Below, in pieces: positions 1 through 45,000 of a stretch of DNA of 64,000 nt; position 1 is the first letter of the stretch, and the number at the start of each line of letters is the position of its first letter. The translations under genes and the position numbers were made by a program. Location: positions 3,348,001-3,412,000 of the forward strand of contig KV748184.1 in NCBI GenBank assembly GCA_001692895.1, given 5' to 3'. The notes under the pieces were generated by a model. It was not told the DNA's origin, searched no databases, and saw only the letters and a list, made by a program, of their open reading frames with translations. Source of the DNA: Cenococcum geophilum 1.58. Taxonomy: Eukaryota > Ascomycota > Dothideomycetes > Gloniales > Gloniaceae.

Positions 1-2640
1 TAATTAAAGCTATATTGTTAAGAGATATAGGATTTATAATCTACTCTAAATATCCTAATCTAATAAAGGAGAAATATAATAGATTTAAAGGTTATTATGT
101 TAAATAAAGTAATAAAAAAAATAAGTTATATATATTTATTTTATATTTTAACAAAAACTTGATTATATATTAGCTTATATAGCTATTAAAGAAAATAATT
201 AGGCTTTATTACTAAATAGTTTGGTTTTAAATAAATATAAATAAATAAACCACCTAAATATGATGTAATTAGTTATTTAATTATTTTTTAAAGCTATATA
301 TGTTTATTAAAGTACTTTAGCTTAGTATAACTATATTGATTATAGAAAATTTAATTAATTAACTAGGGGCAAATATTATCCCTATAATAGGTACTTATTT
401 ATACTTATTTAATAACTATATAAAAACCTTCTTTTTAGAGGCATTTCTTATAGTTATTATGTTTATATATATACTTAATATAACTCTAAATTCATCTATA
501 TTCTAGGTTTTTTTGCCTATATATTAACCTTCCTTTATACCCTCTTATAAAGATTATAAAACATTTAAATTTACTTTAATTATGCCCTATTAATTTATAT
601 GCTTTCTATTAATTATATAAATAAATATTTAATTTAAAAGAGCTAATTACCTATATTTTACTAAAGGGCTTAGTATTGCCATTTTAATTAAATATTTAAG
701 CTACTATATTTCTACAATTATAAATATAAAGGAGTAAATCTTTATAGGTCTTGTTTAAGCACCCAATTAATAAATAAAACCTTCTATATAGGAGCTGGTT
801 AATAATTGTATTAGAGTATAAATTGTTTTGGTAGTATGCTATTTAATTAATCGCTTAAAATTGACAAAGGGACACTATATACGAACACTGCTCTTTGTAT
901 AGATTTATAAACACCAGATTTGGAATCTACGATAGCTATTTATAAGTTCTGCTTGTTTTGGTCTATATTAATAAACTCATTATAGAGAAAATAGATTAAC
1001 AAGTTAGTAAGTTAATTTTGGTGGGGTAACCGAGTTCTAGGGTTAACCGAGTTCCAGGTATCTGATCTTATATAAGTTTAGGTTTTTAGGGCTACCTCCT
1101 TATAGAGAGGTCTTACTTCTTCTAATAGGCCTTTTAGGGTATCTCTCTCTTTTCTTTTCTTTTCTTTTCTTTTATAAAGGGGTTTCTTATACTAGGATAT
1201 TTTATATATTGTCCCCTAGTAGTCTAACTTACTCTCCTCCTCCTTCTTCTTCTTCTTCTAATACTATATAGGCCTAGTTTAGGTTTTCTAGGGCCTTTTA
1301 TAGGTATTGTTTTAGAGACAGAGGGGGAAAACATACTAGCCATTATAGGCTTAGGCATTAGTATCTTTTTTTAGTAGTTCTCTTTAGAAGAAGATTATAA
1401 GTATCTTCTTTTTTTTCCCTTTTTTCTATATCTTTTTTAGATAGGTAGGGGAAAGATAGAAAAAAGAGGTAAATAAAGTAGATAAGAATTTATTATTACT
1501 TATCTCTATATAAAAAAGTTACCTTTAGAAGGCTTTTTAGGCTTAATATCCTAAGGATCCTTTGGTATTTTATAGCTTATAGCTTATAAAGAGGCTTCCT
1601 AGTTTTTTTAGTAGATAATAACCTCCTTAAGTCTCTTATCTCCTAGTATAGAGGTAAAAAACTAAGTAAAAAGCCTTTTTAGTTTTTACTATCTTTCTAT
1701 CTCCTTTTTTCTTATTAACCCTATTAGAGAGTTTCTAGGGAAATTAGACTAAAAGGTAGTCGAAAAACTAGGTAAAAGACTATATTAGTTATTTCCTTCT
1801 CTATTAAAAGTAGAAAAAACTATTAGAAAAAAGTACTTATTAGGCTTTTACTAGCAGAAAAGCCTAAAAGACAATTCTTCTCTTACTAAGGAAAATCTAA
1901 CTAAAGGAAATATAGAAAAAATACTTATACCTCTTATTTTATTAGGCTTTTGCTTTTTATAGAAGAAAAATCTAGAAAAGGTCTATATTTTATAGTTTTG
2001 GTATTTCTATCCCTATCTTACCTATTTTGCTTATAAGTTAAAACTATCTCTTAAAAGAATTTTCTATTAGGGAAAGGGGGTAAAAAGCTAAATTAATCCA
2101 CTTCTAGCTCGCTAAGCAGTAGTAATTAGGACTTAAAAGTTGGAAAATTAGTCATTTTTAATAAAAAGATAGGTATACGTAAGTTCTAGAGTGTGGCGCT
2201 ACCTTTTAGTAAGGTTGTATATGCGGTAAAAAGTACGTAGGTTGCTTATTAATTACGCCAATTATATATTTAGTGCATTTAATATATAACTTAATATATA
2301 ATTAAATTTTCTTTACCTCGCTTAATTTCCGCTTAATTTCCCTTAATAACGCCATTAAAAGCCTAATTATATAAAAATTTATTTTATAAAAAGTTTACTT
2401 AAAAAGAGTTTATATTATATAGTAAGGTAGTAAAATAATAAGATAGTGGGACTTTATAAATCTTTTTATAGGTTATATAGGTAAGTTGATAATTATATAG
2501 ATTACGCGTAGGTTGCGCGCAGATTGCTTATTAAAAGATTTTAACCTAGGCTTATTAAATAAGTTAGTTAAATATGCCAACGGCTAGCCGACTACGCACT
2601 TTACTAGCTATTATAGTAAATTACTATTGCCTATAAAACC
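1..2640. other. AT-rich, RIP-degraded DNA without a recognisable gene
   Basis: This stretch is very rich in A, T and TpA, and stop codons crowd all frames. I could not follow a reading frame or find paired terminal repeats. A pyrimidine-rich patch with short T/C runs lies at about 1140-1260. It is probably old transposon sequence, judged only by its likeness in composition to the mutated elements elsewhere in the window. Confidence 0.6.
1143..1173. repeat. TTTTC microsatellite
   Basis: A short CT run leads into five head-to-tail copies of the pentanucleotide TTTTC. It is a simple repeat in degraded intergenic DNA and has no visible function. Confidence 0.8.
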
Positions 2641-2642
2641 CT

Positions 2643-4196
2643 GCTGTTATATCTATAATTAATCTTTAATTATTAGTAATACTACACCTTTAATACCTAT
2701 TAAATACTATACATATAGCTAGCTTAGAGCTCTCTACCTATACTAAAACAGTGAGAATTAGCTATAGGTTAATAAAGATATTTATATTTTAAGTTAGGCG
2801 CTACTATTATATAAGCACCCTACTAAACTTATAGCGTACTAAAATAAGCCCCTAAGGGGTTATAGATAAAGGCTTTAATAGGACTCCTTATAGATAATAT
2901 ATAACTATTTTAAAGCCTTTTTACCTACTTAAAGCCGTTTATAAAGCTAATTTAGTAAATACTATATCTACTCCTATTATAGATTAACCTACTATATAGC
3001 CGCTTCCTTACTAACCCTTTAGGCCTACGCGATCAATTTAATCTCCTTAATAACCTTAAGCTATAGAGAGTACTATTAAAGTTTATTATACTAAATACTA
3101 TATTATTTAATACTCTATTTAGAATCTAGCGCTACTATAAAAGGATTACCTCGAAGCCTTTTAGTCTATTTACGCTAAAGGACCTATATAGACTTTACTA
3201 TATAGTATATATAATATATAAATAGCTACTTAGGCTAGAGCTTAAGCTTAAGCTTAGACTTAGACCCTTGATATAGCGGCGCCAGTAAAGGGGAAGCTAT
3301 AGTACTTACCTAAGCTTATATATACTAGCTTAGATATAAGTACTAATAGGTATACTATTAGATATAGATATATAGGTACTAAAGAGACTTTAATCTAGAA
3401 GGTAAGACTACTAGATATAAGTAATTAAAGTTATAAAGACTATACTTACTAAGACTTAGTTATATAGTTAAATAACGCCTATAGTTTATATACTATCTAG
3501 TTATTCTAGACGTCTATAGCCTTTAAATAGTTTATAATAACTAATATAGCTAGCTAGGGCTATCTTTCTCCTATTATAGGTAGGCTTTAACCTCCTATAT
3601 AAAGGGTGGATAGGCCTTATAATAAAAGACTAAATAGTTCTATATAGAGCTATTTATAAATATTTTATAGAGGACTACTAAGCCCTATAGGATAACCTCC
3701 TAAAGGTAGAATAGGAGGTTTATAATACCTATAATTATAAGGTTATTAATCTAACTGGGCTAAACTAACCCTTTTAGGTATTTAGCCCTAGCTAGATTAT
3801 TAATAGTAATATATTAGGGGGGGAGACACTTACCTTATAAATATTAAAGTAACCTATCTATAGTGTATAGCCAGCTATTATCTATATAAACTCCTATAGT
3901 AGTAAATTTAAATAGTAGCTAACTATTTACTATTAGTTTTATCTACTAGCGTACTTAATCTAGGTTTTACTAACCCTTTTTAGCTTTACTATTTTTGTCC
4001 TAGCGTTTTATCTAATATAGGTTTTCTTCTATAAAAAGACGCTAATATACTAAAACGCCTTAGTAACCTACTTCCGCTATAAGTTATATAAAAAGGCCGC
4101 CTTAAAGCCCTTAGTACTACTTTTAATTAAGTATATATTATATTATACTAACTACTTACTAAAGTCTAGAAATAGCTTATTATTAATATTTTAGTA
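2643..4196 (+). pseudogene. RIP-damaged long reading frame, part 1 (unknown protein)
   Basis: One plus frame (codon starts divisible by 3) runs for about 520 codons. Every stop met in the lines I read is TAA or TAG, none TGA, as expected when Gln codons CAA/CAG suffer C-to-T change. The implied protein is rich in Gln, Leu, Tyr and Pro, with a Gln/Ala/Thr run near 3243-3265 and a Pro/Gly-rich segment near 3660-3720. I recognise no domain. The frame is cut at 4196 by a MITE and resumes in phase at 4546. It could be a gag-like or captured ORF of an old retroelement, because a polypurine tract (11785-11797) follows its last part. Confidence 0.45.
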
Positions 4197-4543
4197 CAGT
4201 TGAAACTCTTTAGTACAATATCTAATTACAACGATATACTCTATATTACGATCTACACCCCTTAATCCAAATTTTTTTGGTGTAATATTACGATATACTA
4301 ACTATTTACAATATCGTTAAGTTTTCTCCACTAAAATCGTTATAACCAGTAGAGATTTTGTATAGGAGGGGTTATACTTAGCCCGTGAAATAAATGCCCT
4401 ACACCCTTTTAGGATGCTTAGCCACGCGTTAGCCTCCTTTTTCCTACTTATTAACCCAACACGTGACTCCATATATAACAATACCATTAATATTACAATA
4501 TGGTCGGCTGTACGACCCGCATCGTTATAAAGAGTTTTGACTA
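4197..4543. mobile_element. pogo/Tc1-like MITE with TA target duplication
   Basis: The left end reads CAGTTGAAACTCTTTA. The right end is its inverted partner, GAGTTTTGACTA, differing by transitions typical of RIP. Both ends are flanked by TA (4195-4196 and 4544-4545). The 347-bp interior has AACGATATA-like subterminal motifs and no ORF. Removing the element with one TA rejoins the surrounding reading frame in phase (GTA then GTA TAG AAA), which supports these boundaries. Terminal CAGT with a TA duplication is typical of the pogo/Fot branch of Tc1-mariner; assignment to that branch is inference. Confidence 0.7.
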
Positions 4544-4545
4544 TA

Positions 4546-5003
4546 GTATAGAAAATAGAAAGCTAGCCTACTAAGTATATAGATAAGTAGCTTCTTATTA
4601 TATAGAGCTCTAATAGTTTTAAGGTGGCTATAGTAGTTTTACTTATTAGCGTAAGTAGTAAATATAAGGGGTATATAGTAGGTAGGGCTATTACCCTTAA
4701 ACTTAAAGGTAAATAGATTTAAGATCTTAGTAAAGCACCTATTACTACTATAGGTAAGTATATAATAGCCTAGTAGGATATCTATAAGTATATAAAAGTA
4801 GTATTTTAATAAAGAGTATCTACAGAACTATAGATTATAGTAGATATCCTTAAACTTATTTTTTTATATATCTATTAAGTAGTATATCCCTACCCTTACT
4901 TATAAACTACTCCTTATTACGCTATACGCCCCTTTACTATAGAATCTTAGGACTCCTTAATATTATCCTTTTATAAGAACTAGTAGCTAGTAATATCTTA
5001 TTA
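4546..5003 (+). pseudogene. RIP-damaged long reading frame, part 2
   Basis: This continues the frame of 2643-4196 after the MITE. About 152 codons are open apart from TAA and TAG. It is cut at 5003 by the left LTR of Gy1. The last two bases (TA) join the A at 11350 to make one codon, and the frame goes on there in phase. No domain was recognised. Confidence 0.45.
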
Positions 5004-5190
5004 TGGGATAGGGGCAGTGGCTATAAGCGTATGTATTCGAGGAGTCTATAAGACGTTACGCGATTAATCGTAAGGGTTAAGGGCGTAAGGAGGTAATATA
5101 CCTACGCGTAGCTGATATAAGCTATACGCAAGGTATACGCGAGAGCACGGGGCTCTCCTATAGAGGCCCCTGCGGTAGAGTTCCGTAATA
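5004..5190 (-). repeat. Gy1 3' LTR
   Basis: It matches 11158-11344 over the full 187 bp, and nearly all differences are C/T or G/A. On the plus strand it starts TGGGA and ends TTCCGTAATA; the final TA is read as a RIP-altered CA. It carries more A where the partner carries G, so the two LTRs were mutated unequally. Confidence 0.93.
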
Positions 5191-5207
5191 CTACCCCCCT
5201 CCTATAG
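5191..5207 (-). other. Gy1 polypurine tract
   Basis: On the minus strand the sequence next to the 3' LTR is CTATAGGAGGGGGGTAG, a purine-rich run in the position where plus-strand DNA synthesis of an LTR element is primed. Confidence 0.75.
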
Positions 5208-5352
5208 AGGCGGAGCTCTAGCGACGCTGTGGTTACTATATATATATAAAAGGGACACTTAAGGTATAGAAAAGAAGAAAGGGGATATTGCTAAAGGCTT
5301 AAAACAACGTTATATAATAGGGCTTAGTATTTAAGAATCCAACCAATTAGAT

Positions 5353-5375
5353 AACTTTAACCGCCGGTTAAAGTT
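5353..5375. repeat. 23-bp palindrome near the Gy1 3' end
   Basis: AACTTTAACCG and CGGTTAAAGTT flank a single central base and form a perfect 11-bp inverted repeat. It lies in the non-coding stretch between the chromodomain and the 3' LTR. A related sequence occurs inverted near 33130-33170, where a fragment of the same family survives. Confidence 0.75.
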
Positions 5376-5529
5376 CCTAGATATCTTAACGATATTCCGG
5401 TCACGTGATCGCACTTTACCGTAATCTAACGGTAATTTGCTCTTACGTGGTAATATATAACGGTTTAACTCTATAAGGGCTCCTATAGAGGATTAGGTAT
5501 AAAATCTCTACTTAGGCCTAGTTTCTATA

Positions 5530-8500
5530 GGTTCGCGTAGTAAAAGTCACTAATTAGATCCTTTGCATTTTTAAAGTCTTCCTATAGTTACCATTCTGGC
5601 TAATCTATATCAAATCCTGTATATATAGCTTTATAGTAAAGCCGTCGTCCTCTACCTTTGCTAAAGTATTTAAAGTTAATAATTTGTTTAACGGTCCACT
5701 CCTTATAGTTCTTATCTTCGTTCTTATCTTAAATTAATACTAGTAGGGGTTTAGGCTATATCTGCCCCGGTAAGGGGTTAGGCTAATAGAGGTGTAGTAG
5801 CTATAGGTAAAATATAGGCTATATCCCGCGGGTGGCTAGGGTAGGCGGGAGTTCTAGCTTATATGCGGCTCCCTTATTAATAACTCGTTTAATTAGATAG
5901 GGGCCGAGGTTCTTATAATTAAGTGACTTTATAGGCCTTTGTGTAGAGATATTATATATATCTAGCTATACCTAGTCGCCAATACGCATCTCCGGTGGTG
6001 GCGTTCTATAATAATTAGCGAAGTAGGCCTACTTTGCTTAAGCCTAGGCTATTTCTCCCTTATAGTAGTTAAGTAGATTTTTTATACAGTCTATATACTA
6101 GTTGGTAAGTAGCATCTTAAGGCGTTTTCTATATGGCAGTTTTTTATTAATAGGTTCTGGTAGCTTTATGCTAGATTAGGGGTAATAACCCTTGTTTGTA
6201 AAGAACGGGGTAAGTCCTATAGTGGTTAAGATATGGTTATTTACTGCGAATTTACCTAGTAGGAGGTAATCTACCTAGTTATCTTAACTATAGGCAACTA
6301 CCTATTATAGGTATGCTTTTATACTGGCATTAGCGTTTTTTAGTTGCCCGGTAGTTTTATAGTAAAAGGATATAGATATCTTAACGAAGATGCTAAGGTG
6401 TTAGTAAATTCGTCTCTATATATTGGAGTTAAATTATATACCTTAGTCGGACGTAATTAAGTTAGGTAACCTATATAGTTAATAAACTTTATAGAAGAAG
6501 GCGTTAGTAACATCGCTGACGGCTACGCCTTTAGTTAAGACGTAGTGGCGCTCTTTTATAAGTCGGTATATTATTATAAGGATGTTCTTATAGGTACGGC
6601 CGTGTTATTTATAGGGTAGTAGGTTAACAACGAAATCTATAGCGATATCCGCCTATTGTTATATAGGTACTAGTAGGGGGTATAGTAGTCCTTAGTACTT
6701 TATATTAAAGGCCTTAGTACACTTATAACTATAGTAGGCACCTATAAAGCGTTTAACTAAGTCTATTATTTTAGGCTAGAAGTAGTATCGGCTAAGGAGC
6801 TTATAGGTTTCTCTTTTACCTAGGTGGCCGCTTAACCGGAGGTTGTAGGCTATTTAGATTAATTACCGTTATAAGTTCTTTAAGTTAAGGATAAATAGGC
6901 GGCCTCTATAATAGAGTCTGTTCTCTTTTACTTTTAAGGCTGCTATATTAATCTAGCCTAGGCTTTAGAGGTTAGTAGGTAGTATATGGGCGCTAGCGGT
7001 CTTTGCGGTAATAAATTAATATAGTAATAGGTTAATAGAAGTATTATATGCCGTAGTAATAAGCTTATTAATTTTAGGAGGTAACTTTAGTTCTATAGTA
7101 CAAAGCTAAGGTGCTATTAGCTCTGTTATAGGTAGCATACCTAGGGCCAGATTCCGTGCTTTTAGGATTATCTATTACTAAAACTAATTTTAAGGGTCTT
7201 TTTTTAACTAAGGGAGGTTTTATAAGCGGCGTATTAGGCTATCTAGCTTAGTACTTTATACTCCCGGTCTATATATAATTTTAAAGTTAAAATTAGAGAG
7301 GAACTTATTCTAGCGTACTTAGCGTTAGTTTAGCTACTTTATAGTTATAAAGTATTTAAGGTTGCGATGGTTTATAAGGACTTTAGTTAGCTAATTAGGT
7401 TCTATTAAGGAGAGTTCCAGTTAGAATTCCTTAAACGCTTATATAATTGCGAGAAGTTTCTTATTATAGATCTTGTAGTTATACTCTTATAGTGTAAGCT
7501 TAGATAAGTAGAATGCGACTAGGTGGAGGAGGCCGTTATTACCTATCTAGGAGAGAATACCTGCGTTAACGTGGTCTAAGGAGTTGGTTTTAAGGTAAAG
7601 TTGTTATTTTAGTACAAAGTAAGCTAGGGTAGGTGCTTTAGTAAAAGTATTTTTAAGGTCTTAGAACGCCTTCTTATATTTAGGCGTCTAGGTAAAATAT
7701 AGGTACGTTTTTCTTCCTTTTATAGAAAGGCCCTTTGTTTATATTATTGCTATAAGTAGTGCTATTACGCCTAAGAAGTTGTATATAAATTTCTAATAGA
7801 AGTTAGCAAAACTAAGGAAGGCTTATACGTCCTTAATGCAGTTAGGGGCTTATTATTTAGTAATTATGCGTACTTTCTTAAGGTCTATACAGATACCCTT
7901 AGTAATAATAATTAGTTTAAAGTATTTTACTTCTGTAACTAAGAATTTATACTTTTTTAAATTAATATAAAGTCCTACGTCCCTAAGGCGCTCTAGGACT
8001 TTTTAAACGTGCTTAGTATACTTAAAAGGGTTATTACTATAAATAAGTATATCGTCTAGGTACGCAGAGCAGAAGTTATTAAGGTAGTCCCGTAAGGCGT
8101 TATTAATATAGCTTTAAAAGGTGCCTAGGCCGTTATATACGCCGAAGGGTATAATAGTATATTTAAATTGGCCGAAGCGTAATGCGAATGCGGTTTTCTA
8201 TTTGTTACCTTCCCGTATTCGGAAATAGTTAAAGGCGGCAATAATATTAAGCTTAGTGTAGATTTTAGCTTAACTAAGCCGCTTAAAAGTCTTATATATA
8301 AGCGGTATGGGGTATTAGTTCTTAATTATAATAGCGTTAAGTCCTTTATAGTTAATATAGAATCTAATACCTCCTCCTAGCTTCTTAGTGAGAAGGATAG
8401 GGGTGGCTGCTAGGGATATGCTAGGACGAATAAATCCTTTATTAAGGTATTTGTTAATATACTTTTTTATAACTAGAAGTTCGTCTTTAGATATTAGGTA

Positions 8501-9290
8501 GGGTCTCTTATAAGGTAGCATTTTTCCTTATTTAATGTTAATAGTATAGTTATTGGGTTAATGTAGGGGGAGTATATCTACGCTCTTTTATGAGTATATG
8601 TCGATAAAGTTATAGTACCTCTTAGGGAGGAGCTTGTGGAGTTCTTTATTAGTAAATCCTTTTTTAAGTTTTATAAACTTCTTAAAGTCTAAAGGTAAAA
8701 GTCTGTAGAGTTTTACAGGGGCGTCGTCTTCTAGAAGGTTAACTATGTCTATTCTATTACTATAGAGGACATAGTCTTATTTTTTATTAAGTTTATATAG
8801 TCGTAATTAGGAGGCTATAGTAATGGTTTAGCCTTTTCTACGTGCTATGCGGTAGAAGGCTGCGGCACTTATATAGTAGCAGTTGGTCGTAGGTAGGGTA
8901 ATAAGGGGTTTCTTAGGTTAATATCCTAGTGAGTAAATAGAGGCGGCTAGGCTATGTCCTAGGCAAGTCTCTCTACAGTATTTAGAGTTAAAGGTTGCTT
9001 TTTTCTTTTCCTAGTTAATAGTAGGGTTATATTATTTAAGCCAGCTTATTCTAAGGATAATAGGGTAGTTAGTAAGTGGTATAATATAGGCCTAGAGCTC
9101 TTTCTGGTGCCCGTTTATATCTAAGTAGAGTTATACTATATAGGTAATCTTCTATACGGTAGAACTACTATTAGCAAGTTATAGGGCGCGGGCTTTAGTA
9201 AGGGGTAAGGTAGGTAGGCTATAAGTACGCATAAATTAGGTATCTATAAATTTATTAATAGCTCCGCAGTTAATTATAAAACGGCTTTTA
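5530..9290 (-). pseudogene. Gy1 pol relic: protease, RT, RNase H, integrase, chromodomain
   Basis: Translated on the minus strand, retropepsin remains as NYPIILRISWLK near 9000-9290. Reverse transcriptase includes a stop-free 68-codon piece (8315-8521) with GFIRPS and LTKKLGGGIRF, then PFG and the catalytic [10 protein letters not shown] box at about 8045-8066. The integrase core follows at about 6380-6660 (DIAIDFVVNL). A chromodomain at about 5530-5705 begins EWTVKQIIN, and its later Trp codons are now TAG. Chromodomains at the end of integrase direct insertion towards heterochromatin in known chromoviruses. Stops are TAA or TAG at Gln and Trp positions, so the protein cannot be made. Confidence 0.9.
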
Positions 9291-9499
9291 TATTATTTTT
9301 TGGTAGTAGTTCCTATTATAGGTAAAACTATCTATTTCTATCCGTTTATTTTTACTAAGTTATCTATTAAGTAGGCCGATATATAGATCTCTCTATTATT
9401 AGGGCGTCCTAACCCGCGACTTAGGGTAAGGACTTAGCATTTTCCGCTTCTATATCCGATTCTACTACTATTACTACGTCTTCGTCTTATATAGTAGTG

Positions 9500-11150
9500 G
9501 CGCGTAGTAATATATTTAGTATTTAGGGCATTATATTAGGTATTAGACGGCGGCTACTAAACCTAGCTATTAGGTAGTTTAGGTTATTACAATAATAGCC
9601 TTCTTAATAGTATCTATAGCAGCGTTCTAGTTTCTAAAGTAGCTCGCGCTCTCCGTCTAGGAGTTTTTATAGAAAGGTTAGTATAGAGAAGTCAATATTA
9701 GCTCCCGTGGTACTTAAGGTAGTAGGTGTTAGTAGCTTAGTGTATATAGGTTTAGTAGGCCTAGAGGGCTTCTATAGAGAGGTCTTTAGGTAAGAGTTAG
9801 CGGTAATAATCTAATTTAGTTATTATTCAATTTTCTATAGAGCTGCTACTATATTATAAACGTTATTGTAGTTATAGCTGGCGGCTGCGTGACTAAGGCG
9901 ATAAGTAACTTTTTTAAGAAGGTCCTTTTGGTCTTTAGTATTATCTTAGGTAAGGGCTCTAGTATATTCCTAAAATTTAATATAAAATTCGTTAAATAAT
10001 TTAGTAGGGCTTATCTTTAGGGCACGTAGTTTAGCTCAGTTGGTGGCTAGTAGGTTGTAGTTACGGTATATTAAGTTAAGATCGTTAAGGACTTCTTAGT
10101 AGAATTGCTACTTTTAGGGGCTACTAGTCTCCCATTAGGCGAAGAGTCTATTAAATAGTGTACCTTTTATTCGCCTAATAATATAGCCGATCTTAGTATC
10201 TTCCGTAAAAAAAAGGTAGGCGCTCTAAGTTAATTTTTCGCGGATTTGTATCTTCTAGTAGCTGTATTCCTTGCGGTCTCCCTAAAAGACTAGGGGATTA
10301 GGGTAGCGTATATTAGACCCTATAGTAGCAGTTTAGGTCCAGTTATTATAGCTTTTATTATTACTGCTTTAGTAGGGGTTCCTATTAGGTAAAGCTGCTT
10401 AACACTAGCCCTCTATTAAGCGTTAAGTAGGTAAAGTTGCTAGGGGCGTAGAGACTTAGGTAGCGTTATATATAGTAGAGAGGTATCTAATATTATTACA
10501 AATGTGTTCGTTAAGCTAAGATTATAGGTATTTAATTATGCCTTCTTTTTTAGTGACTGTAGCAATTAGTGTAATCTTAGCCTTCTTTAACTGTTAGACG
10601 TCGCGTTTAGACACGCGGAGGTTATCTTTAGTTTCTTAACGTGTGTTATTAGCAAGCGCCTTACGAGCTTGTAGGTCTTGGATAATATCGCGATCTTAAG
10701 TAGTACGCATCTTGGCTTGTATAAGCTTTAGGTGGTAGTTCTATAGAAGGCAGTAGTATTTATTAGGGTCTCGTACTACCATTTTTGCAAACGTCTTAGC
10801 GTCTCGTATTTTGATTTTAATGGGTAGTCGCCCTTCTGTTTGCTTGTCTGTAGTTATATAGTTAATAAAAGATAAGATATTATCGGTGTCTGTCTCCTTA
10901 AGGGTTAAGGCTAGTACTAATAAATTAAATTCTCCTAGGATTAATTGGCGTTGTAGGTTAAGTGTAGGTATTAGGTTATTCTTTAGGTTTAATATAATAG
11001 CTAGTAAGAAATATTGTCTTACTATTATAGGTTCCTTAGAAATATAAAGTAAGGTAATTTATAGACACGCTATTTCTAGCAGCGCCTATAGTATTGCAAA
11101 GACGTAGAATTGGTCGTAGGCTGAGCGTTGGTGGTAAAAAGGCGCAACGT
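9500..11150 (-). pseudogene. Gy1 gag relic
   Basis: On the minus strand the region beside the 5' LTR encodes a charged, probably coiled-coil segment (for example MVVRDPNKYYC, near 10760-10790). A decayed CCHC-type knuckle follows near 9580-9610 (CYRYYKKAYYCNN, in which Cys and His have become Tyr). This is the capsid/nucleocapsid part of the Gy1 polyprotein. TAA and TAG stops interrupt it. Confidence 0.65.
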
Positions 11151-11157
11151 AATGTCA

Positions 11158-11344
11158 TGGGACGGGGGCAGTGGCTATAAGCGTATGTATTTGAGGAGTC
11201 TATAAGACGTTACGCGATCGATCGTAAGGGTCGAGGGCGTAAGGAGGTGATATACCTACGCGTAGCTGACATAAGCTGTACGTGAGGTGTATGCGAGAGC
11301 ACGGGGCTCTCCTATGGAGGCCCCTGCGGTAGGGTTCCGTAATA
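11158..11344 (-). repeat. Gy1 5' LTR
   Basis: This 187-bp partner of 5004-5190 is better preserved, keeping CGATCGATCG and GGTCGAGGG where the left copy has A for G and T for C. It would hold the Gy1 promoter, transcribed leftward. I could not recognise a tRNA-type primer-binding site next to it. Confidence 0.93.
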
Positions 11345-11349
11345 TATTT

Positions 11350-11797
11350 ATAGCTTCCTATACTTAATAGAGGTCTATTATAGCTATAATACAGCTATAA
11401 ATTAAGCGTTAAAAGAGCCACATCTTATTTTAGGGTATATTATTACTAGCCTTATAGCTTTTAGCCTTTAGTAGCTAGCCTATAACCTCCTTAATAAAGA
11501 GATAGAAGTAGTTTATCCTCTATTACTATATTATTATTATTATACTACTTCTACTTATAAAAGGCTTAAAAAGAAGGCACGCGTTAGCTATAAGTATACA
11601 ACTTTATAAAGTACCTACCTACCTACCTACCTTATACTCTTTCTACTTTAGCTTATAATTTAAGATATATAAGGGCGAGAATACTTTACACGTTAGCGTA
11701 GTTTAGTATTATTTATAATATTAATCTCTATATAACTAATTAATGCTATTTTTAAAATAGGACGCTAATAGAGAAGTAGCGCCCTAGGGGGGGAGAG
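11350..11797 (+). pseudogene. RIP-damaged long reading frame, part 3, with a polypurine tract
   Basis: The frame from 5003 resumes here in phase and runs about 130 codons or more with only TAA and TAG stops. It includes a Pro/Tyr-rich piece from four ACCT repeats (about 11619-11635). It approaches a CCTAGGGGGGGAGAG tract at about 11783-11797, followed by TTCTATTTTATATATA. A purine tract followed by that sequence resembles the junction of a retroelement interior with its 3' LTR. I could not find a matching 5' LTR upstream, so the element type is unresolved. Confidence 0.4.
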
Positions 11798-11977
11798 TTC
11801 TATTTTATATATATATATACAGACATAGACCAGAGAGAAGAGGTAGAGAAAGTATACCTACCGGCCGCTTAGCGAGCGGATAAGTAACCTTACTATATAG
11901 GGTAAATATATAGGCGCACGGCTGGCCTAATAAGCTAATGGTACGCGCGTATTAGCGGCTTAATTAGTGGGGGGTAA
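11798..11977. other. Possible LTR remnant between the old ORF and the palindrome
   Basis: A TATATATATA run and a purine-rich stretch follow the polypurine tract, then CpG-bearing sequence (CCGGCCGCTTAGCGAGCGG near 11862). This looks like a retroelement LTR by position only. No second copy was found in the window. Confidence 0.3.
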
Positions 11978-12035
11978 GATATTCGAATATATCCACGGCT
12001 TGGCTGCAGCCTAGCCGTGGACATTCGCGAATGTC
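11978..12035. repeat. 58-bp imperfect palindrome
   Basis: The two 29-bp halves match at 23 of 29 paired positions around a central GGCTGCAGCC. Several mismatches are transitions. Two small palindromes (ATTCGAAT and ATTCGCGAAT) sit at mirrored places in the arms. It could form a cruciform or be the terminus of a lost element. It stands 15 bp from the fold-back element. Confidence 0.75.
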
Positions 12036-12050
12036 AACGGGGGTGTAGGA

Positions 12051-13083
12051 GTTCTCCCCCCTCCGTGCACGGTCCCACTCAATGCACGGTTTTCCTTACC
12101 AAAATTTGCCTAAATACACCTTTTTATACCACCTATAACTTAATAACCTTTTAATAGAATTTTATAAAATTTTAAATATAGCTTATCAAATACTAAAACT
12201 ATAATTTTATATAAAAATATTATAAAATATTATAANATATATATACTTAAAATTAGGTTAAAAAAGTACTTTTTTTAATAAGACTTAGTATTATTAATAT
12301 TAATATTAATAAAGCTATTATATAGCTAGATTTTATATATATTTATATTTATTATATAAATAAGTGTTTTTAATATTTATATATTAAGTAAATTATATTA
12401 AAATATATATATTTATATTATAAATAAAGTTTTTATATAATAAATTAAAGCCATAAAATACTTTACTATAAGTAAAATTAAGTATAAAAAATACAATTAA
12501 GCTTATTATTATATCTAATATAAAAATTGAAATTTTTTAGTATGGATAAAAAGTAAGCTTCTTTATTTTATATTATAACCAACAATATTTTTAAATTTTT
12601 ATTTTATAAATGCTTTTACCTTTTATATAATAAGCTATATTAAATTTTTTATATTAATTGCTATTATAGTGATTAAGTTATAAGCATTTTAAAAAAATTC
12701 TATAAAAATTTCCCCAGAACTATATACAAGCTAACTATATATATAAGCCGGTTACCTATATATTAAAAAGCTTATTTATATTATAAATATAGATATATAT
12801 AAAATCTAGCTATATAATGGCCTTATTAATAATAATATTATTAATATTAAGTTTTATTAAAAAAGTACTTTTTTAACCTAACTTTAAGTATATATATTTT
12901 ATAATATATTATAATATATTTATATAAAATTATAGTTTTAATATTTAATAAGCTATATTTAAAATTTTATAAAATTCTATTAAAAGGTTATTAAGTTATA
13001 GGTGGTATAAAAAGGTGTATTTAGGCAAATTTTGGTGAGGAAAACCGTGCATTGAGTGGGACCGTGCACGGAGGGGGGAGAAC
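12051..13083. mobile_element. Fold-back element with about 330-bp inverted arms
   Basis: The left arm (12051 to about 12385) and the right arm (about 12752 to 13083) are inverted copies. Both start GTTCTCCCCCCTCCGTGCAC from the outside and stay nearly identical for over 100 bp before RIP-like differences accumulate. The centre, about 366 bp, is extremely AT-rich and has no ORF. No convincing target duplication is seen (GGTGTAGGA left, CCGTATGTG right). Long arms with no coding capacity fit a fold-back or non-autonomous TIR transposon. It lies about 610 bp upstream of the isocyanide synthase start codon, so its transcripts or silencing could affect that gene; this is inference. One N is at about 12236. 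Confidence 0.85.
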
Positions 13084-13695
13084 CCGTATGTGTCGTGTGC
13101 GACTCCGAGCCGTGTGCGACTCCGAGCCGTGAAACACCACATCATCAATGGCATCTACGCCACAAAAACCGGCCAGGAACCTGGAGAAGCATCGGCAGGA
13201 TTTGACATCCTCACCACCTTGTGGCGCTTATTAGCGTGCAAAGACTTTGTTGGAACTCTTGCCTAGCCTCATACAGCGTTATTATGGCCATCTTCTTTAA
13301 AACAGAGTCTTGCAATCTTGCAACAGCAGTCGGGCCGTTCGACACAAAGATCTTGTGCTTCCGGGATCGCCAACAGTAAGCCACTCGATACGGGTAATAC
13401 GAAAGCCTGAGAATCTGGCGAAGGAATCTAGGAAGGATGTTCACGAGGACAGCACAAAGCTCTATTATAAGATGCTGTGCCATGATTGTGTGAGACGGCT
13501 TAATTATATTGCCTCAGTGAGGCCCGCGTCATCGTATTCGGGCTCATATCACGGTGAGGCATCTGGTGGGAGAATAAATACTTAGCGGCCTCCAATATTA
13601 GCTGCCTTTTAGTCCAGTTGTACTTTGAGTCGTTCTTCTTCTGACTCGTAATTCCGTCTTGGTTATATTTGGACTTCAACGTCACTTTGCCAATC
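13084..13695 (+). promoter_or_regulatory. 5' flank of the isocyanide synthase gene
   Basis: About 610 bp of normal-GC, unmutated DNA separates the fold-back element from the start codon and presumably holds the promoter and 5' UTR. It begins with two tandem copies of a 17-bp unit, CGTGTGCGACTCCGAGC (13094-13127). An ATG at about 13149 opens a 28-codon frame that is not continued. Short frames exist on both strands, but none shows a domain. I saw no exact match to the TGTGCTCA-type site I recall for copper-sensing Mac1-like factors, only partial resemblance near 13343. Confidence 0.45.
13094..13127. repeat. 17-bp tandem repeat, two copies
   Basis: The unit CGTGTGCGACTCCGAGC occurs twice without a mismatch, just right of the fold-back element. 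Function unknown. Confidence 0.85.
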
Positions 13696-16600
13696 ATGCA
13701 CATCAATCCCAAAACCACAAACTCCGTCGCGGTGATGGACCAGAAATCCTCCGATACCTCACAGACCGCCATGGAGGTAAAACCGATAGACAGCCTCGTT
13801 AGGCTTGCCCCGGTCGACGACAACTCCTCCGATGCCTCGCATACCACCATGGAGGTGAAAACTTCCACAAACGGCCTGGGCCTTCTTGGGCTTTCTCCGG
13901 TTGATGAGCAATCCTCCCAAGCCGCGCCTACCACCCTGGAGGTGAGGGATGTTTCTCATCTGATCTTGGATATAATTTTTGAGTACGCGCTCAACAAATT
14001 CGACGACTCGAAGGACCGACTCGCCGCGGGCGCGGCCAAGTTCTTGTCAGTCATTGACCAGTTCGTCATAGCGGGGACACGGGTGGAAGCGTGCCTCCCA
14101 GCATTCCCGTTCAAGTCGGCAAACAAGGTGTACAAAGTGCTCGGTACTCTACCTGATAAAGCCGAAGAGTTGGCTCTTGAACGGTTGAATTCTATGTGCA
14201 CACGCATCCGGGACGTGTACCCACCTGGCGCTAAAGTCACCATCATCTCGGACGGCATTACATACAATGGTGTGTCCAATACCAATTCAATCGTCTCCCT
14301 CGCTAATGTAATTGTTTTTTGCATTGTCAGACTTATTGTCCATATCGGATCGCGATACCTGGGCTTACGGAGAGGCTCTACGCAAAATGGCTATCCAGAA
14401 GGGGTTTAACTATATTGGCTTCTCCAGAATGAAAGACTTGCTCGATTTCCCTCTGCCAGAAAAGCTAAGAGAGATCACTTACGTCGCCAATTGCACCAAT
14501 TTTCGCCGATTTCTCCTTGATAAATACGGCAGACCTGACCTCGACACCGATCACGAAATTGCCACGAATCCCGATACAAAGTTGACTTACCTCGGATACC
14601 GAAGATTCCTGGAGTCAGATTTAAGGCATATCTTCACACTCGGGCAGAATAGAACCAGCAACGGCTATAAGAGAGACGTGAAGTATCTTGCCAAGCAAAT
14701 GCTGATCCGAGGATATGTAAGTATATTCCAACTGCCCTCTCTAGACCTTTGCAAGCATGGCATATTTAGTAATGTCTCTGGTTAACCACTTCTCAAACAG
14801 TCTTTTGCTGGGGCGGTCAAGAACGCCTTTCCAAACCATTTGCGGCTTTCTATCCACGAATCGATAGGCGAGCACAAGGTATCCATGAGTCTGCTGAACA
14901 CCAAGACCGGATTTACGACTCCATGGCATTGTAGCGTCGCTTTACTGGCGGATGGGGAGTGGATCAGCGCTCCAATGGGTGATTTCAAGAAAGATCCCAG
15001 GCTGGAACTCGTGTACGAGGACGGCCGACCCAGCTATTTCAAGGAGAAGCCGCGTGAGGCCAATGCTCCTAGTATCAGCGAGACATCAGCAAGCTACCTA
15101 CAAGCACCCAAACGACTCAGTGGGTACCTCAGTGGATACTCTTCACCCAGTGTGGCCTCAGGAGTCAGTGGATACTCTACACCCAATGGGCGCTCTCCCA
15201 GCCTTGTGTCCGGTGTGGAAGCTGCTGTGAAGAAGCCAACCAATTCATATACGAATGGGACTACTTCGACACCATACGGCAGAAGGCTCATCCCTCAGAT
15301 CATGGACAGCCTGGCTTCTGCCGAGCCAGATCGCACCATATTCTCAGTAGCGACATTTTCCGATAATTCCCTTGGATTTCGGCATATTTCTGCTCACGCC
15401 TTTACAAAGGCGGTTGACAAAACCGCTTGGTGGCTTCACAACCAGGTTGGAAAACCCACGTCGATCCAGCCGGTGGGCTATATTGGACCGCGTAAGTTGG
15501 AGAGAAAGCCTCAAGCTGAGCATTCTTGTTCCAGTCCATGACTGACTATACAAAGATGATCTTCGACACATTCTGTTGACCTACGCGTGTGTCAAGGCTA
15601 GTTACGCGGTGAGTCTACGTTCCTCCGTACCACCATGAATATCACTTGGAATTCGGCTGGCTGACGCAGTTCATTCCCGCAGGCCTTGTTCCTTTCGCCC
15701 AAGAACAACACAGAAGGGGCACTAGCAGTCCTCAATGCAGTAAAATGCAACATCTGGGTCAAACCTGGTGAGGTGGCCACTATTCCTCTGGTGAAAGACG
15801 TCCTGCAGCAACGCCCCATGAAAGTTCTAGATCTCCCTATACTCGACGAGCTTCTCGATGCTAAATCTACCGAGCCTTTCCCATACACCAAGACGTTTGA
15901 GGAAGCTACCAATGACCCATTCTGCTTCCTGCATACCTCTGGGACCACAGGAGTGCCGAAGCCTATTCCATGGTCCCACGGTCTGATTGGCACGATGGAT
16001 GCGGTGCGGCTGCTCCCGCCTACCAAGGGCGATGATGGGTTGGCCCCGTGGACATCTGATTGGGAGGAAGGCGATAGGATCTACTCGTCATTCCCTATGA
16101 GTCACGTACGTATCTTGTTCCTAGCTGCCCTGGAAGCCTGTGGGCTAATTTCATGACATTAGGGTGCCGGTATCATCATGGACATCCTTATGCCTGCCCT
16201 CTTCAACCTGCACTGCGTCTTGGGACCTGCGGGTGTTCTGCCCAATATCAACCTCGTGGAATCTCTCGCAGACCATGGGAAGATCGACATCTGGAGTATG
16301 GTCCCGTCACTTGTCGATGAGCTGGGTGAGGCTCCTGAAGTCTTAGCAATGCTCAAGTCATCGAAATTCATATGTGCATCTGGCGGTAAGCATATTCTTT
16401 TTATTGTTTCCCCCTTCACAGTCATAGCACTAACTCTCTTGTTCTTCAGGTCCCGTTAGCCCAGTCAGTGCTGGCAAAGTAAACGACGTGATCAGAGTCC
16501 TGAACTTAACCGGTACAACCGAGGGTCTGTTCATTGGTAACCTTGTGGTACCAAGGGAAGACTGGTTCTGGTTCGCCTTTCACCCCTACTCCGGCTTCGA

Positions 16601-19103
16601 GTTCAAAGAAGTGGAGCCCGATACCTATGAGCATTGGGTGCATCGCAACGAGCACTGGCCCTTGTTCCAGGGCATTTTCCACACGTTTCCGGACAAGCAA
16701 TCCGTCAACTTCAAAGACTTATACATGAGGCATCCCACCAAGCCGAATCTGTGGGCCTTCAAGGGAAGAAGCGATGATCTCGTCGTCCTGTCCAATGGGT
16801 ATAAAATATCGCCCTTGGAGACGGAAGCCTTTGTCACCACACACCCTGCAATCAACGGGTGCCTTGTTGTAAGTGAGCCCATTCAAACTCTCCCCAAGTC
16901 GCAAGAAGGAGCGCCCCATATTTAACGCAGCACTGCGCCGCAGATTGGGACCGGAAAGCCCCAGGCAGCCCTGCTTATTGAGTTGAAAGATCCGTCATCC
17001 AAAACCGACGAGCTCCTCGACAGCATATGGGCAACAGTCGAAAAAGCAAATTCGCTGTCTCGACACAAGAACCAGCTGCTGAGGGACTTCATTACCTTTA
17101 CAGAGCCAGACAAACTCTTTATCCGCACAGACAAGGGGACTGTCAAGCGACCCGCCACTCTGGCACTTTATGCTGACTACATTGAGCGTTTCTATAGCTC
17201 ACGAAGTGATGACCTGGTTGCTTTCACCGTCGATACAAGTTCGGTTGAGTCGATTCAGGATTCTATCCGCGAGATCATTGCCTCTTCATTGCCTGCAATT
17301 CAAGAAGCCTCGCCAGATGACGACGTGTTCGGTCTCGGGCTAGACTCCCTCGGTGTGTTCGCGGCTGTCAAGACCATTCGGGCAGCCACGGGGTTACGGG
17401 ATCAACTTGCTCTTCGACACCTTTACGCCAATCCCACCCTTGCCAAGTTCTCTGCTGCTCTTGCACGTTTAGCAGCCGAGGCGAAAAGTACAAACGGAAC
17501 GGCCTCAGGGAACCCTGTTGACGACGATTTGGCCAAGATGAAAAGGATGATTGCCCAACACAAGGCGCGGCAATCGTTCAAGTTGAACGCACTCGATTAC
17601 GTCAACCCGAATCACTACATGGGATTGGTTTTCTACTTTCCTCTACATAAACGGGTCAGTTTCGAACAAGTCTTTGCGAATCTACAGGAGGGTCTCAATC
17701 GCACATTGAAACTTATTCCAGCCCTCGGCGGCAAGATGATGAATTGCTCGGAACAAGAAATTGGTTACAAGAAGGGCGACCTCTGCGTCACAATTCCCCC
17801 CCTTTCATTGTCAGCCTCGGTTAGCAATCGTCTGATCTATAAGGATCTGTCTCGTGTTCTTCCGCCATTCGAGAAGTTGCGAGATGCAGGGTTCGTGCCA
17901 TCCGCCTTCAAGGACGAACTTGTCCTACCAGATGATCCGTTCCCGAAGATGCCCGCTGACATCTTGGTCGCACAAGCCAACTTTGTCGAAGGCGGCTGTA
18001 TTCTCGCCGCCAACCTGAACCATTGCTGCCTTGATGGCCTCGGTGTTATGGTCGCTCTCAAGGCCTGGGCCGAGAACTGCAGATATCTGCAAGGCGACAA
18101 GTCAGCAACATGCGACTGGTACGACCCGGAGAGCTTCAGTCACAGCTTTCCAGAGATCCTACATGAACAGGAAGGGTACGCCCGACCAGTTCATGAGGTA
18201 GATTCTGGTACATGGGGCTTTCTGCCATTTTTTCCCCCAGAGGGACCCCTTGAGAATCAGACGAACGGTATAGTTAAGACTGAGAAGTCTCGCCTTCCAA
18301 AGGAAGGAGCTCTCCCTCGGCCACCTGTTTTCCCTCTGCACTCCGTCTGGCCACTGCCTTGCGCTGAGAGAGCCTTGAGCACTACCTTATTTTTGATTCC
18401 ACCCGAGAACGTGCAGAATCTTAAACAAGAAGTAATTGCCGACCCAGAGGCCAAGGGGGTTATCACATCTATCAGTGATATTGTGCAAGCCTTCTTCTGG
18501 CGCTCTGCGATCAGAGCACGATACCGTGTGGCCAAGGAGCTCCGGGGAGAAACATTTGGACCCGACAAGATGTCCATTCTGGAGTTACCTACTGATGGCC
18601 GCCCTTACTTCTCTTCTTTGTTGCCATCAACGTATATGGGCAGCATGCTCATACTGAATCGATCCAGCATGCCCATCGAGACACTCTGCTCGCCCGAGAC
18701 GAGCATTGGACGCATCGCATATCTGCTCCGCGGGTCTGCTGCGCGTATCACGCCCTCGCTTGTGCACGATGCGTTTACGCTTCTGCAGTCTTTGCCAGAC
18801 CATAGCAGGTTCTCTACTGCCAACATGGGTCTCGCGCATATGCACGCCATGATTTCCAACATGATCCTATTCCAGACGAGTGAGATCTCCTTTGGAGATA
18901 AATTCTTCGCCAACGGAGGCTCACCTGAAACCATGCGACCGCAACTCGAACGGGGCAACGGCCGTTTCCGGTTTTTGGTCATCTTTCCCATGAAGAAGGA
19001 TGGAGGCGTGGAGCTGGTACTAGGCACATTCCCTGAGGAGTTGGAGATGTTTAAAACGGATGAAGAGTTCACCAAGTATGCAAAGATTGTGGATAGTTGC
19101 TAA
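13696..19103 (+). CDS. crmA-like: CrmA-like hybrid isocyanide synthase / NRPS-like enzyme (ICS-A-T-acyltransferase)
   Basis: Eight exons join in phase into 1642 codons: 13696-14269, 14331-14716, 14801-15491, 15556-15608, 15683-16105, 16163-16385, 16450-16868, 16944-19103. All seven introns are GT-AG. Residues about 86-405 are a DIT1/PvcA isocyanide synthase (KVLGTLPDKAEELAL, VTIISDGITYND, PWHCSVAL). This family turns an amino acid's amine into an isocyanide. Residues about 486-1010 are an adenylation domain: HTSGTTGVPKP (652), LNLTGTTEG (801), GRSDD (889), Lys991 in GTVKR. Next come a carrier domain with Ser1058 in LGLDSL and, to the end, a BAHD/trichothecene-type acyltransferase with HCCLDG at 1283. 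This is the order known for Aspergillus CrmA, a copper-starvation-induced enzyme of valine-derived isocyanides (from memory). ATG 13696 is the first after an in-frame stop at 13642; Met14, 26 and 52 are alternatives. No frameshift, no missing core motif, no cluster partner in the window. Substrate not readable. Confidence 0.93.
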
Positions 19104-44489: not shown

Positions 44490-44700
44490 AAGACGGTAGG
44501 TAGAGCTCTACGTGGAGCCTTGGCAGAGCTTCGTGCAGAGCTTCTTGCAGAGCTTCTGGCAGAGCTTCGTGCAGAGCCTTTGGTAGAGCTCTATGCGGAG
44601 CCTTGGCAGAGCTCCGTGCAGAGCTTTGAGGGAGCTTCGTAGAGAGCCTTTGGCAGAGCTTCGCGCAGAGCTTTCTGGCAGAGCCTTTGGTAGAGCCTCT
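44490..44700 (+). repeat. GCAGAGCTY tandem array, plus orientation
   Basis: About a dozen degenerate copies of a 13-16 bp unit with core GCAGAGC(T/C)T are spaced by GTGC, CTTG or TTTG(G/T). The short ORF that runs through them (44460-44642) is a repeat artefact rich in Ala-Glu-Leu. An inverted counterpart starts 115 bp downstream. Confidence 0.85.
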
Positions 44701-44814
44701 AACTCAGTTTTAGCCCGTGCTACATTTAACTAAGAGTCTACTAATCTATAATAATTCTAGCTTAAAGCTAGGCCCCATAATTAATTTCCCTAGCTACCAA
44801 ATCTTTACTGGACC

Positions 44815-45000
44815 CTCTCCGCACGGGGCTCCGCACGGAGCTCTACACGAGCTCTGCACGGAGCTCTACCAAAGGCTCTGCCAGAAAGCTCTGCCAGAAA
44901 GCTCTGCACGAAGCTCTGCCAGAGGCTTTCTACGAAGCTCCCTCGAAGCTCTGCACGGAGCTCTGCCAAGGCTCCGCATAGAGCTCTACCGAGGGTAAGG
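44815..45000 (-). repeat. GCAGAGCTY tandem array, minus orientation
   Basis: This is the reverse-complement counterpart of 44490-44700. A block of about 57 bp here (near 44933-44990) is almost identical to the inverse of 44587-44643. Together the arrays can fold into a long hairpin. The antisense ORF at 44930-45121 reads the same repeat and ends in the same residues as the ORF on the other arm (VQSFEGAS). Confidence 0.85.

Follow-up and report, generated by a model that had tools for sequence, protein, structure and literature searches.

The window analysed here, a 64,000-nucleotide stretch of the Cenococcum geophilum 1.58 genome (contig KV748184.1), carries an isocyanide synthase (ICS) gene that is probably a working CrmA orthologue and a member of a conserved isocyanide module of two genes, the other being a PDR-type ABC transporter gene beyond the left edge of the window. 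From sequence comparisons we consider it likely that the two genes represent a conserved make-and-export pair that was pulled apart by transposons. This would place an isocyanide pathway in a dominant ectomycorrhizal symbiont.

An intact CrmA-type gene

A sequence-only reading had joined eight in-phase exons into 1642 codons with the order ICS, adenylation (A), thiolation (T) and acyltransferase, and the open frame and Pfam domains agree with that model (Table 1). Splice sites predicted from homology and open frame delimit GT-AG introns of 57-84 nt, and the joined exons, 4929 nt long, contain 1642 codons and a terminal stop in an uninterrupted frame. The DIT1_PvcA, AMP-binding, PP-binding and Transferase families suggested as a check all matched the spliced protein, DIT1_PvcA with 324 bits (E 8.8e-97). 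Pfam splits the adenylation part into AMP-binding (aa 495-815) and AMP-binding_C_3 (aa 892-1009), and the acyltransferase part into TRI-like_N (aa 1148-1302) and Transferase (aa 1410-1632).

Table 1. Coordinates of features at the ICS-ABC locus (window positions unless marked C9)
Feature	Position	Strand	Remarks
CrmA-type ICS-A-T-acyltransferase gene	13696..19103 (C9:3361696-3367103)	+	8 exons, 1642 aa
Exons 1-4 of ICS gene	13696-14269, 14331-14716, 14801-15491, 15556-15608	+	
Exons 5-8 of ICS gene	15683-16105, 16163-16385, 16450-16868, 16944-19103	+	
Isocyanide synthase domain DIT1_PvcA	14053..15010	+	Pfam, aa 120-390; introns 14270-14330, 14717-14800 within
Adenylation domain AMP-binding + AMP-binding_C_3	15323..17201	+	Pfam, aa 495-1009; introns within
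Thiolation domain PP-binding	17262..17462	+	Pfam, aa 1030-1096; LGLDSL
BAHD-like acyltransferase TRI-like_N + Transferase	17616..19070	+	Pfam, aa 1148-1632; HCCLDG (HxxxD)
RIP-free 5' flank of ICS gene	13084..13695	+	~610 bp
AT-rich foldback (palindromic) repeat	12051..13083	.	directly upstream of ICS gene
RIP-mutated LTR retrotransposon between ICS and ABC genes	5003..11344	-	putative LTRs 5003-5190 and 11157-11344, 91% alike
PDR-type ABC transporter gene, probable partner	C9:3340914-3346320	-	intact; outside window, 1.7-7.1 kb left of base 1
Related foldback element	C9:3346425-3347170		outside window; ends ~105 bp upstream of ABC start codon

The core motifs SDGITYND, HTSGTTGVPKP, LGLDSL and HCCLDG, reported earlier from the letters alone, are all present in the spliced protein. 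We compared it with 84 orthologues, those of its best 96 protein matches that are at least 1500 aa long, and most positions of the four motifs carry the residue commonest among them. HTSGTTGVPKP and LGLDSL align with the 84 orthologues, with the carrier serine in 83 and a gap in one, while the H and D of HCCLDG occur in 84/84. Overall, the protein matches 329 of 333 near-invariant columns. DIT1_PvcA (PF05141) was found at a single locus in the 177-Mb host genome, which is this gene, and a search with five queries detected no ICS relics elsewhere in a 183.7-kb stretch (best E 0.18).

A PDR transporter gene as probable partner

The ICS gene had been described as alone, a claim that no longer holds: some 15.4 kb upstream, in divergent orientation, there is an intact PDR ABC gene, a close homologue of which adjoins the CrmA gene of Chaetothyriales sp. 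CBS 134920. The accompanying claim that partner genes are missing is correct within the window, but the candidate partner starts 1.7 kb past its left edge. Pieces of this gene match ABC_trans_N, ABC and PDR_CDR. We considered and rejected a broken gene at this locus, as the guided model is stop-free and 1405 of 1405 aligned residues equal those of an annotated Cenococcum protein (P0241), indicating an intron-rich intact gene. No gene-like island was found between the ABC and ICS genes. The host genome has at least four PDR loci as counted by PDR N-terminal domain matches, and with so few of these domains the chance closeness of one to the ICS gene is unlikely.

The same pairing was read from gene numbers and contig sizes in other fungi. 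The best CrmA match (P0001, DV735_g1890) and a close transporter match (P0270, DV735_g1891) are consecutive models of Chaetothyriales sp. CBS 134920, both on contigs of 311,512, and in Amniculicola lignicola the CrmA row P0005 and the ABC row P0243 lie on contigs of equal size (504,244). Both Chaetothyriales models are flagged partial. For the close CrmA rows P0002 and P0003, no recognisable ABC neighbour appears among the best 120 transporter matches listed.

Sixteen of the best 120 matches to the ICS protein (P0104-P0117, P0119 and P0120) are ICS-ABC fusion proteins, which span Dothideo-, Eurotio-, Leotio-, Lecanoro- and Sordariomycetes; in 15 of them the ABC alignment starts 29-63 residues past the ICS alignment. 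In a 41-row ABC tree, where every fusion but P0108 was placed, the 15 fusion rows and 12 solo rows form one 27-row clade (SH-aLRT 100). The solo rows represent 11 distinct proteins. Among them are the two CrmA neighbours and the Cenococcum ABC gene, entered once as our model and once as P0241; a CrmA link was observed for three of the proteins. The most similar other PDR gene found in the host, the C2 paralogue, falls outside the fusion-containing clade, which has 16 rows in the tree that includes this paralogue. With 14 of the 16 fusions as queries, five of which were trimmed to a C-terminal stretch of 351-381 residues, the C9 transporter outscored the next PDR gene by modest bit margins, except that one query (P0117) favoured the other gene. 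In an ICS-domain tree with 16 fusion-type rows, from which P0115 was left out and which included P0118, a row without an ABC part, fusions and CrmA are not cleanly separated into two clades. On balance we lean towards the view that this PDR subfamily is a dedicated exporter of CrmA-type isocyanides across Ascomycota, encoded beside CrmA or fused to a CrmA-like synthase.

PDR pumps are often general efflux pumps, and the Cenococcum CrmA might instead be a self-sufficient enzyme with no local partner, the nearby ABC gene being an unrelated drug-efflux pump. The 15.4-kb separation of the two genes is consistent with this, as is the finding of 0 matches to the crmB-type AATase domain in the host genome, a result that the control genomes share. 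The consecutive models in Chaetothyriales sp. CBS 134920, the equal-size contigs in Amniculicola, the transporter clade common to the ICS-ABC fusions and the small chance of a PDR gene lying nearby all argue against it, and we regard a stand-alone enzyme as unlikely.

crm-type partners and copper

In A. fumigatus, crmA, which yields valine isocyanide (PMC9381783), is flanked by crmB (alcohol acetyltransferase), crmC (siderochrome-iron transporter) and crmD (Ctr copper transporter) (PMC5974471, PMC9381783). Searches for the crmB and crmD types found neither beside the Cenococcum ICS gene: Ctr matches lie only at C51 and C25, and AATase has none in the host genome or in the control genomes. In the available text of PMC9381783, crmB-D are little conserved in more distant species, so such neighbours are not a strict criterion for CrmA. 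The premise that CrmA sits with partner genes is thus weak for distant species, though three Pleosporales retain crmB together with an alpha/beta-hydrolase (PMC9381783). The same source reports that deletion of crmB-D left crmA-dependent features unaffected. Given this dispensability and low conservation, it is possible that the Cenococcum product needs no A. fumigatus-type local tailoring. The four-gene A. fumigatus cluster, as described in the portions available, has no ABC gene, yet crmA products are made.

The neighbouring gene-rich island (C9 3271-3319 kb) contains 42 ORF pieces of 130 aa or more, and the 20 of these that were scanned include no crm-like partner. Named matches there are WD40, SIR2, a Cu-oxidase fragment, PigL_N, IBR, kinase and DUF7932. 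Copper-responsive promoter motifs include TGTGCTCA and TTTGCTC with their variants, and none of these was found upstream of the ICS and ABC genes, nor within 1.5 kb upstream of either Ctr match. The ICS gene may be under copper control.

Kinship of the ICS gene

The proposed CrmA-like identity is borne out by 60-row and 25-row trees, in both of which the ICS protein lies inside the CrmA clade on a short end branch (0.059 and 0.047, respectively). The other 59 and 24 rows were drawn from the best 102 of 126 matches, among which P0090, P0096 and P0098 show no ICS domain.

These trees bear on whether the ICS gene, alone or with the ABC gene, was transferred from one fungal class to another and inserted among repeats close to the end of a Cenococcum contig. 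The top matches listed are from Chaetothyriales and Pyrenula (Eurotiomycetes, 81-82%); for a nearby host gene, the closest of the named matches come from Dothideomycetes. Grouping the nine Eurotiomycete CrmA rows of the 25-row set as one was rejected (log-likelihood 443 lower, AU p 3e-51), and the contig ends 64.6 kb beyond the ICS gene. On the other side, the ICS branch is very short and the trees leave its order relative to Amniculicola (Dothideomycetes) unsettled; Cenococcum may have inherited the gene and Chaetothyriomycetidae received it, or old paralogues may have sorted. Telomere repeats were not seen at the contig end, and we rejected a subtelomeric location for the gene. We regard a horizontally moved cassette as unlikely.

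Repeat surroundings

RIP acts on repeats, and its absence from the ICS gene, over which the RIP composite index (CRI) is -0.66, is expected because the gene is single-copy. In the ranges 1-13000 and 20001-58000, 50 out of 51 one-kb blocks qualify as RIP-mutated by the criteria used (the exception, block 44001, has a CRI of -0.06). So do five of the last six, where block 58001 narrowly misses; block 19001 (CRI 0.41) does not qualify. Per-block and gene-wide indices thus agree with the earlier description of an undamaged gene between RIP-type or repeat flanks.

The gap between the ICS and ABC genes consists mostly of multi-copy, RIP-mutated repeats. The retrotransposon contains a reverse-transcriptase-like relic recognised by eye (8318-8527, minus strand), and its 5000-7500 stretch recurs in at least 39 other copies at 88-91%. 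If up to two mismatches are allowed, a 20-mer near the end of the foldback repeat has 70 occurrences in the genome, against 0 for the reversed control. The unaffected 5' flank of the ABC gene measures only ~105 bp, so that its promoter may be damaged.

That the ICS gene is an open-looking relic, silent or already losing function inside heterochromatin, is very improbable: RIP-mutated repeats do lie on all sides of it, one nearly abuts the ABC promoter, and a Cenococcum-named CrmA protein is absent among the best 120 of 126 matches, though the ABC protein is annotated, but the gene has no stop, frame break or RIP signature and retains its near-invariant residues and complete motifs.

Discussion

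The ICS domain would convert valine to the corresponding isocyanide, as A. fumigatus CrmA does. An acyl group would be loaded by the A and T domains, and release as an ester would fall to the BAHD-like domain. The ABC pump would then export this product, which would protect the producer and supply the soil with a compound that binds copper or inhibits microbes. Transposon insertions probably pushed the two genes apart, with RIP afterwards mutating the repeats and sparing the single-copy genes.

The available literature on CrmA links its products to copper starvation and to inhibition of microbes, and in those portions does not describe how they exit the cell. A recurrent ABC partner, at times fused to the synthase, is a direct candidate for export and self-protection. 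The genera with CrmA are in the majority pathogens according to the accessible text of PMC9381783. Cenococcum and isocyanide were co-mentioned in the reference list of a single paper, and isocyanide work on this fungus is named in no title or abstract start among the 8 of 185 literature matches listed. If the two-gene reading is true, a tree-root symbiont carries a module dispersed by transposons, and an ICS architecture is missing from ICS surveys: the three eukaryotic architectures named in the available parts of PMC5974471 and PMC10153163 do not include an ICS-ABC fusion. A pair separated by transposons in this way can also escape cluster searches based on distance; in the genome study of C. 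geophilum, the largest gap allowed was 3 kb (PMC5023957).

Among known systems, A. fumigatus CrmA (P0022) has the same ICS-A-T-transferase order, with identities of 77% (ICS), 82% (A), 67% (T) and 75% (transferase), but its neighbours are crmB, crmC and crmD, whereas the nearest gene found in Cenococcum encodes a PDR ABC transporter. PvcA of Pseudomonas and dit1-type ICS share the catalytic family of the ICS domain, whose best solved relatives by sequence are 3e59 (PvcA), 9dhm and 9dh4; these enzymes are single-domain and lack the A-T-acyltransferase extension of the Cenococcum protein. CrmA with a C-terminal transporter domain, found mainly in Dothideomycetes (PMC9381783, available text), resembles the Cenococcum pair in tying a CrmA enzyme to a transporter, but there the transporter is fused and, in the rows examined, of MFS type (PF07690, on 4 of the best 102 rows matching the ICS protein), whereas in Cenococcum it is a separate PDR ABC gene. 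The ICS-ABC fusions have an ICS domain 64-79% identical to that of Cenococcum and an ABC part in the clade of its transporter (15/15 placed); they are one protein without A, T or acyltransferase domains, whereas Cenococcum has two genes and an ICS protein with all three.

The window gene is intact and belongs to the CrmA family

The sequence-only reading had described an undamaged CrmA-like isocyanide synthase (ICS) gene standing alone among RIP-mutated transposons. The proposed gene structure holds at the coordinates it named, with eight exons that join in phase into 1642 codons, GT-AG introns and zero internal stops. Pfam places DIT1_PvcA, AMP-binding, AMP-binding_C_3, PP-binding, TRI-like_N and Transferase domains along the protein, in agreement with the claimed order of ICS, A, T and transferase. 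The gene itself has normal RIP indices (composite index -0.66), and most of the kilobases around it have RIP-like ones, as had been read from the sequence. The gene is the sole DIT1_PvcA locus that we found in the host genome (177,193,698 bp in 162 contigs, of which the window's contig, KV748184.1 or C9, spans 3,431,692 bp). The published C. geophilum assembly is reported as 178 Mb with 81% repeats (PMC5023957).

We aligned the window protein with the 84 orthologues among the first 96 matches that are 1500 aa or longer. The protein agrees with 329 of the 333 columns in which one residue reaches at least 98%, the mismatches being at aa 255, 321, 566 and 1322; that at aa 566 could be a RIP-type transition, provided that the orthologue codon, judged by eye, is one base away. 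It also lacks two residues present in at least 90% of the 84 orthologues. Its N-terminus includes 25 residues, within a self-repeating stretch, that are matched in no more than 2 of the 84, which makes the true start codon of the ICS gene uncertain. Three imperfect, SSxxxxTxxEV-like repeats are encoded in this N-terminus (window 13696-13950).

A homologue search with the window protein found 126 proteins, 120 of them listed. The best of those listed come from Chaetothyriales sp. CBS 134920 (82%), CBS 135597 (81%) and Pyrenula (82%), and the A. fumigatus homologue is 73% identical. Phylogeny places the window gene on a short branch inside the CrmA clade. It is a new CrmA family member, in an ectomycorrhizal fungus. 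Our trees gave no settled order among the window gene and the Chaetothyriomycetidae and Amniculicola CrmA. A single Eurotiomycete CrmA clade was rejected (AU p 3e-51). CrmA of Chaetothyriales and Pyrenula (P0001-P0003) group apart from those of Eurotiales and Onygenales, and either transfer or old paralogy may lie behind this split. Lojkania enalia carries two distant CrmA copies (P0010, P0015), one with an MFS domain.

A PDR-type ABC transporter gene lies upstream

We inspected 100 kb leftward of the window, and rightward up to the contig end. The next non-RIP island leftward (C9 3340-3346.5 kb) contains one PDR-type ABC transporter gene. Spliced alignment guided by a Caloplaca ICS-ABC fusion yields a stop-free model of 17 exons and 1405 residues, to which the annotated Cenococcum protein supplies one more exon and both ends; all 1405 of 1405 aligned residues are identical to this Cenococcum geophilum-named protein. 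The claim that the ICS gene is alone therefore does not hold: an intact, divergently oriented ABC gene lies upstream, outside the window, with 15.4 kb between the two start codons. Between the ICS gene and the contig end on the right, we saw no further gene-like island except for a small block rich in repeats (window 44-45 kb).

Although the Cenococcum ABC protein is listed in the database, no Cenococcum-named protein occurs among the listed CrmA matches; annotation may have missed or split the gene, or it may be absent from the sequenced strain. Among the 120 listed matches of a kinase ORF of the host, which lies 50 kb upstream, none is named Cenococcum; the best named match is Mytilinidion resinicola (Dothideomycetes, 81%), and one nameless match reaches 96%.

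Features of the ICS-ABC region (C9, contig KV748184.1)
Feature	Position	Strand	Remarks
PDR-type ABC gene	C9:3340914-3346320 (window -7086 to -1680)	minus	spliced alignment, annotated protein
Related AT-rich foldback element	C9:3346425-3347170		directly upstream of ABC gene, outside window
Repeats	within window 500-4900		parts match many places, 74-91%
LTR element, 6.3 kb	window 5003-11344		2.5-kb probe: at least 39 further copies
Repeat	window 11345-12050		~39 further matches, 74-82%
AT-rich foldback element	window 12051-13083		directly upstream of ICS gene
12-base repeat (GAGCCTTTGGCA-type), two facing arrays	window 44515-44994		open frames rich in Ser, Ala, Leu, Pro; GC above surrounding repeats

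ICS and ABC genes are associated in other fungi

Synteny elsewhere, ICS-ABC fusions and a shared ABC clade together suggest that the neighbouring ABC gene is probably the partner of the ICS gene. Chaetothyriales sp. CBS 134920 has the top CrmA match as DV735_g1890 and a close match of the ABC protein (81%) as DV735_g1891, both on contigs 311,512 long, and in Amniculicola lignicola the CrmA and ABC matches are both on contigs 504,244 long. No such neighbour of P0002 or P0003 (close CrmA matches) was seen among the 120 listed ABC matches.

A CrmA-like ICS domain and a PDR transporter are joined in one protein in 16 of the 120 listed homologues (P0104-P0117, P0119, P0120), which we take, from genus names, to span five fungal classes. 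The ABC alignment starts 29-63 residues past the ICS alignment in 15 of them; in the sixteenth (Stagonosporopsis) it begins only from query residue 139. All 15 fusion rows included in an ABC tree of 41 rows fall into a single clade together with 12 solo rows (SH-aLRT 100). Among the latter are the Cenococcum gene, counted twice (our model and the annotated P0241), and both CrmA-neighbouring transporters. Four PDR loci were found in the host, the next most similar of which falls outside this clade, and the C9 ABC gene is the top host match for 13 of 14 fusion ABC parts, by modest margins. In the ICS tree, fusion ICS domains adjoin those of CrmA but form no single clean clade.

Repeats occupy most of the DNA between the two genes

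Multi-copy repeats fill much of the gap (table), which fits a scenario in which transposons would have pushed an older ICS-ABC pair apart. A 20-mer near the foldback ends occurs 70 times in the genome with at most 2 mismatches (control, 0). The stretch C9:3347050-3347900 is repetitive in no more than its right half, which begins near 3347477; C9:3347050-3347476 (~400 bp; 50-54% GC from 3347101) has no match elsewhere in the host genome and might be a leftover of the original intergenic DNA. Judged from sequence, the notable feature of this locus would be a conserved, partly fused ICS-ABC partnership rather than solitude, the pair apparently being split here by repeats. Transport by the ABC protein, control by copper and the nature of the product are inferred here.

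Comparison with known isocyanide synthase systems

According to PMC9381783, the A. fumigatus CrmA product is a valine-derived isocyanide, crmA-dependent features are unaffected by crmB-D deletion, and crmB-D show little conservation among more distantly related species; A. brassicicola, L. maculans and C. heterostrophus keep crmB together with an additional alpha/beta-hydrolase. The same source describes CrmA with a fused transporter domain as mainly Dothideomycete. A preprint places 87.5% of 4,341 fungal ICS genes in predicted clusters (PMC10153163), so ICS genes outside predicted clusters are already known. We found no published description of an ICS-ABC fusion in literature searched mostly by title and abstract start, and the word "ABC" appears nowhere in the body text of PMC9381783, PMC5974471 or PMC10153163 (preprint). 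Three eukaryotic ICS architectures are named in the latter two surveys, namely single-domain, ICS-dioxygenase and ICS-NRPS-like, and the ICS-ABC fusion falls outside the three as named there.
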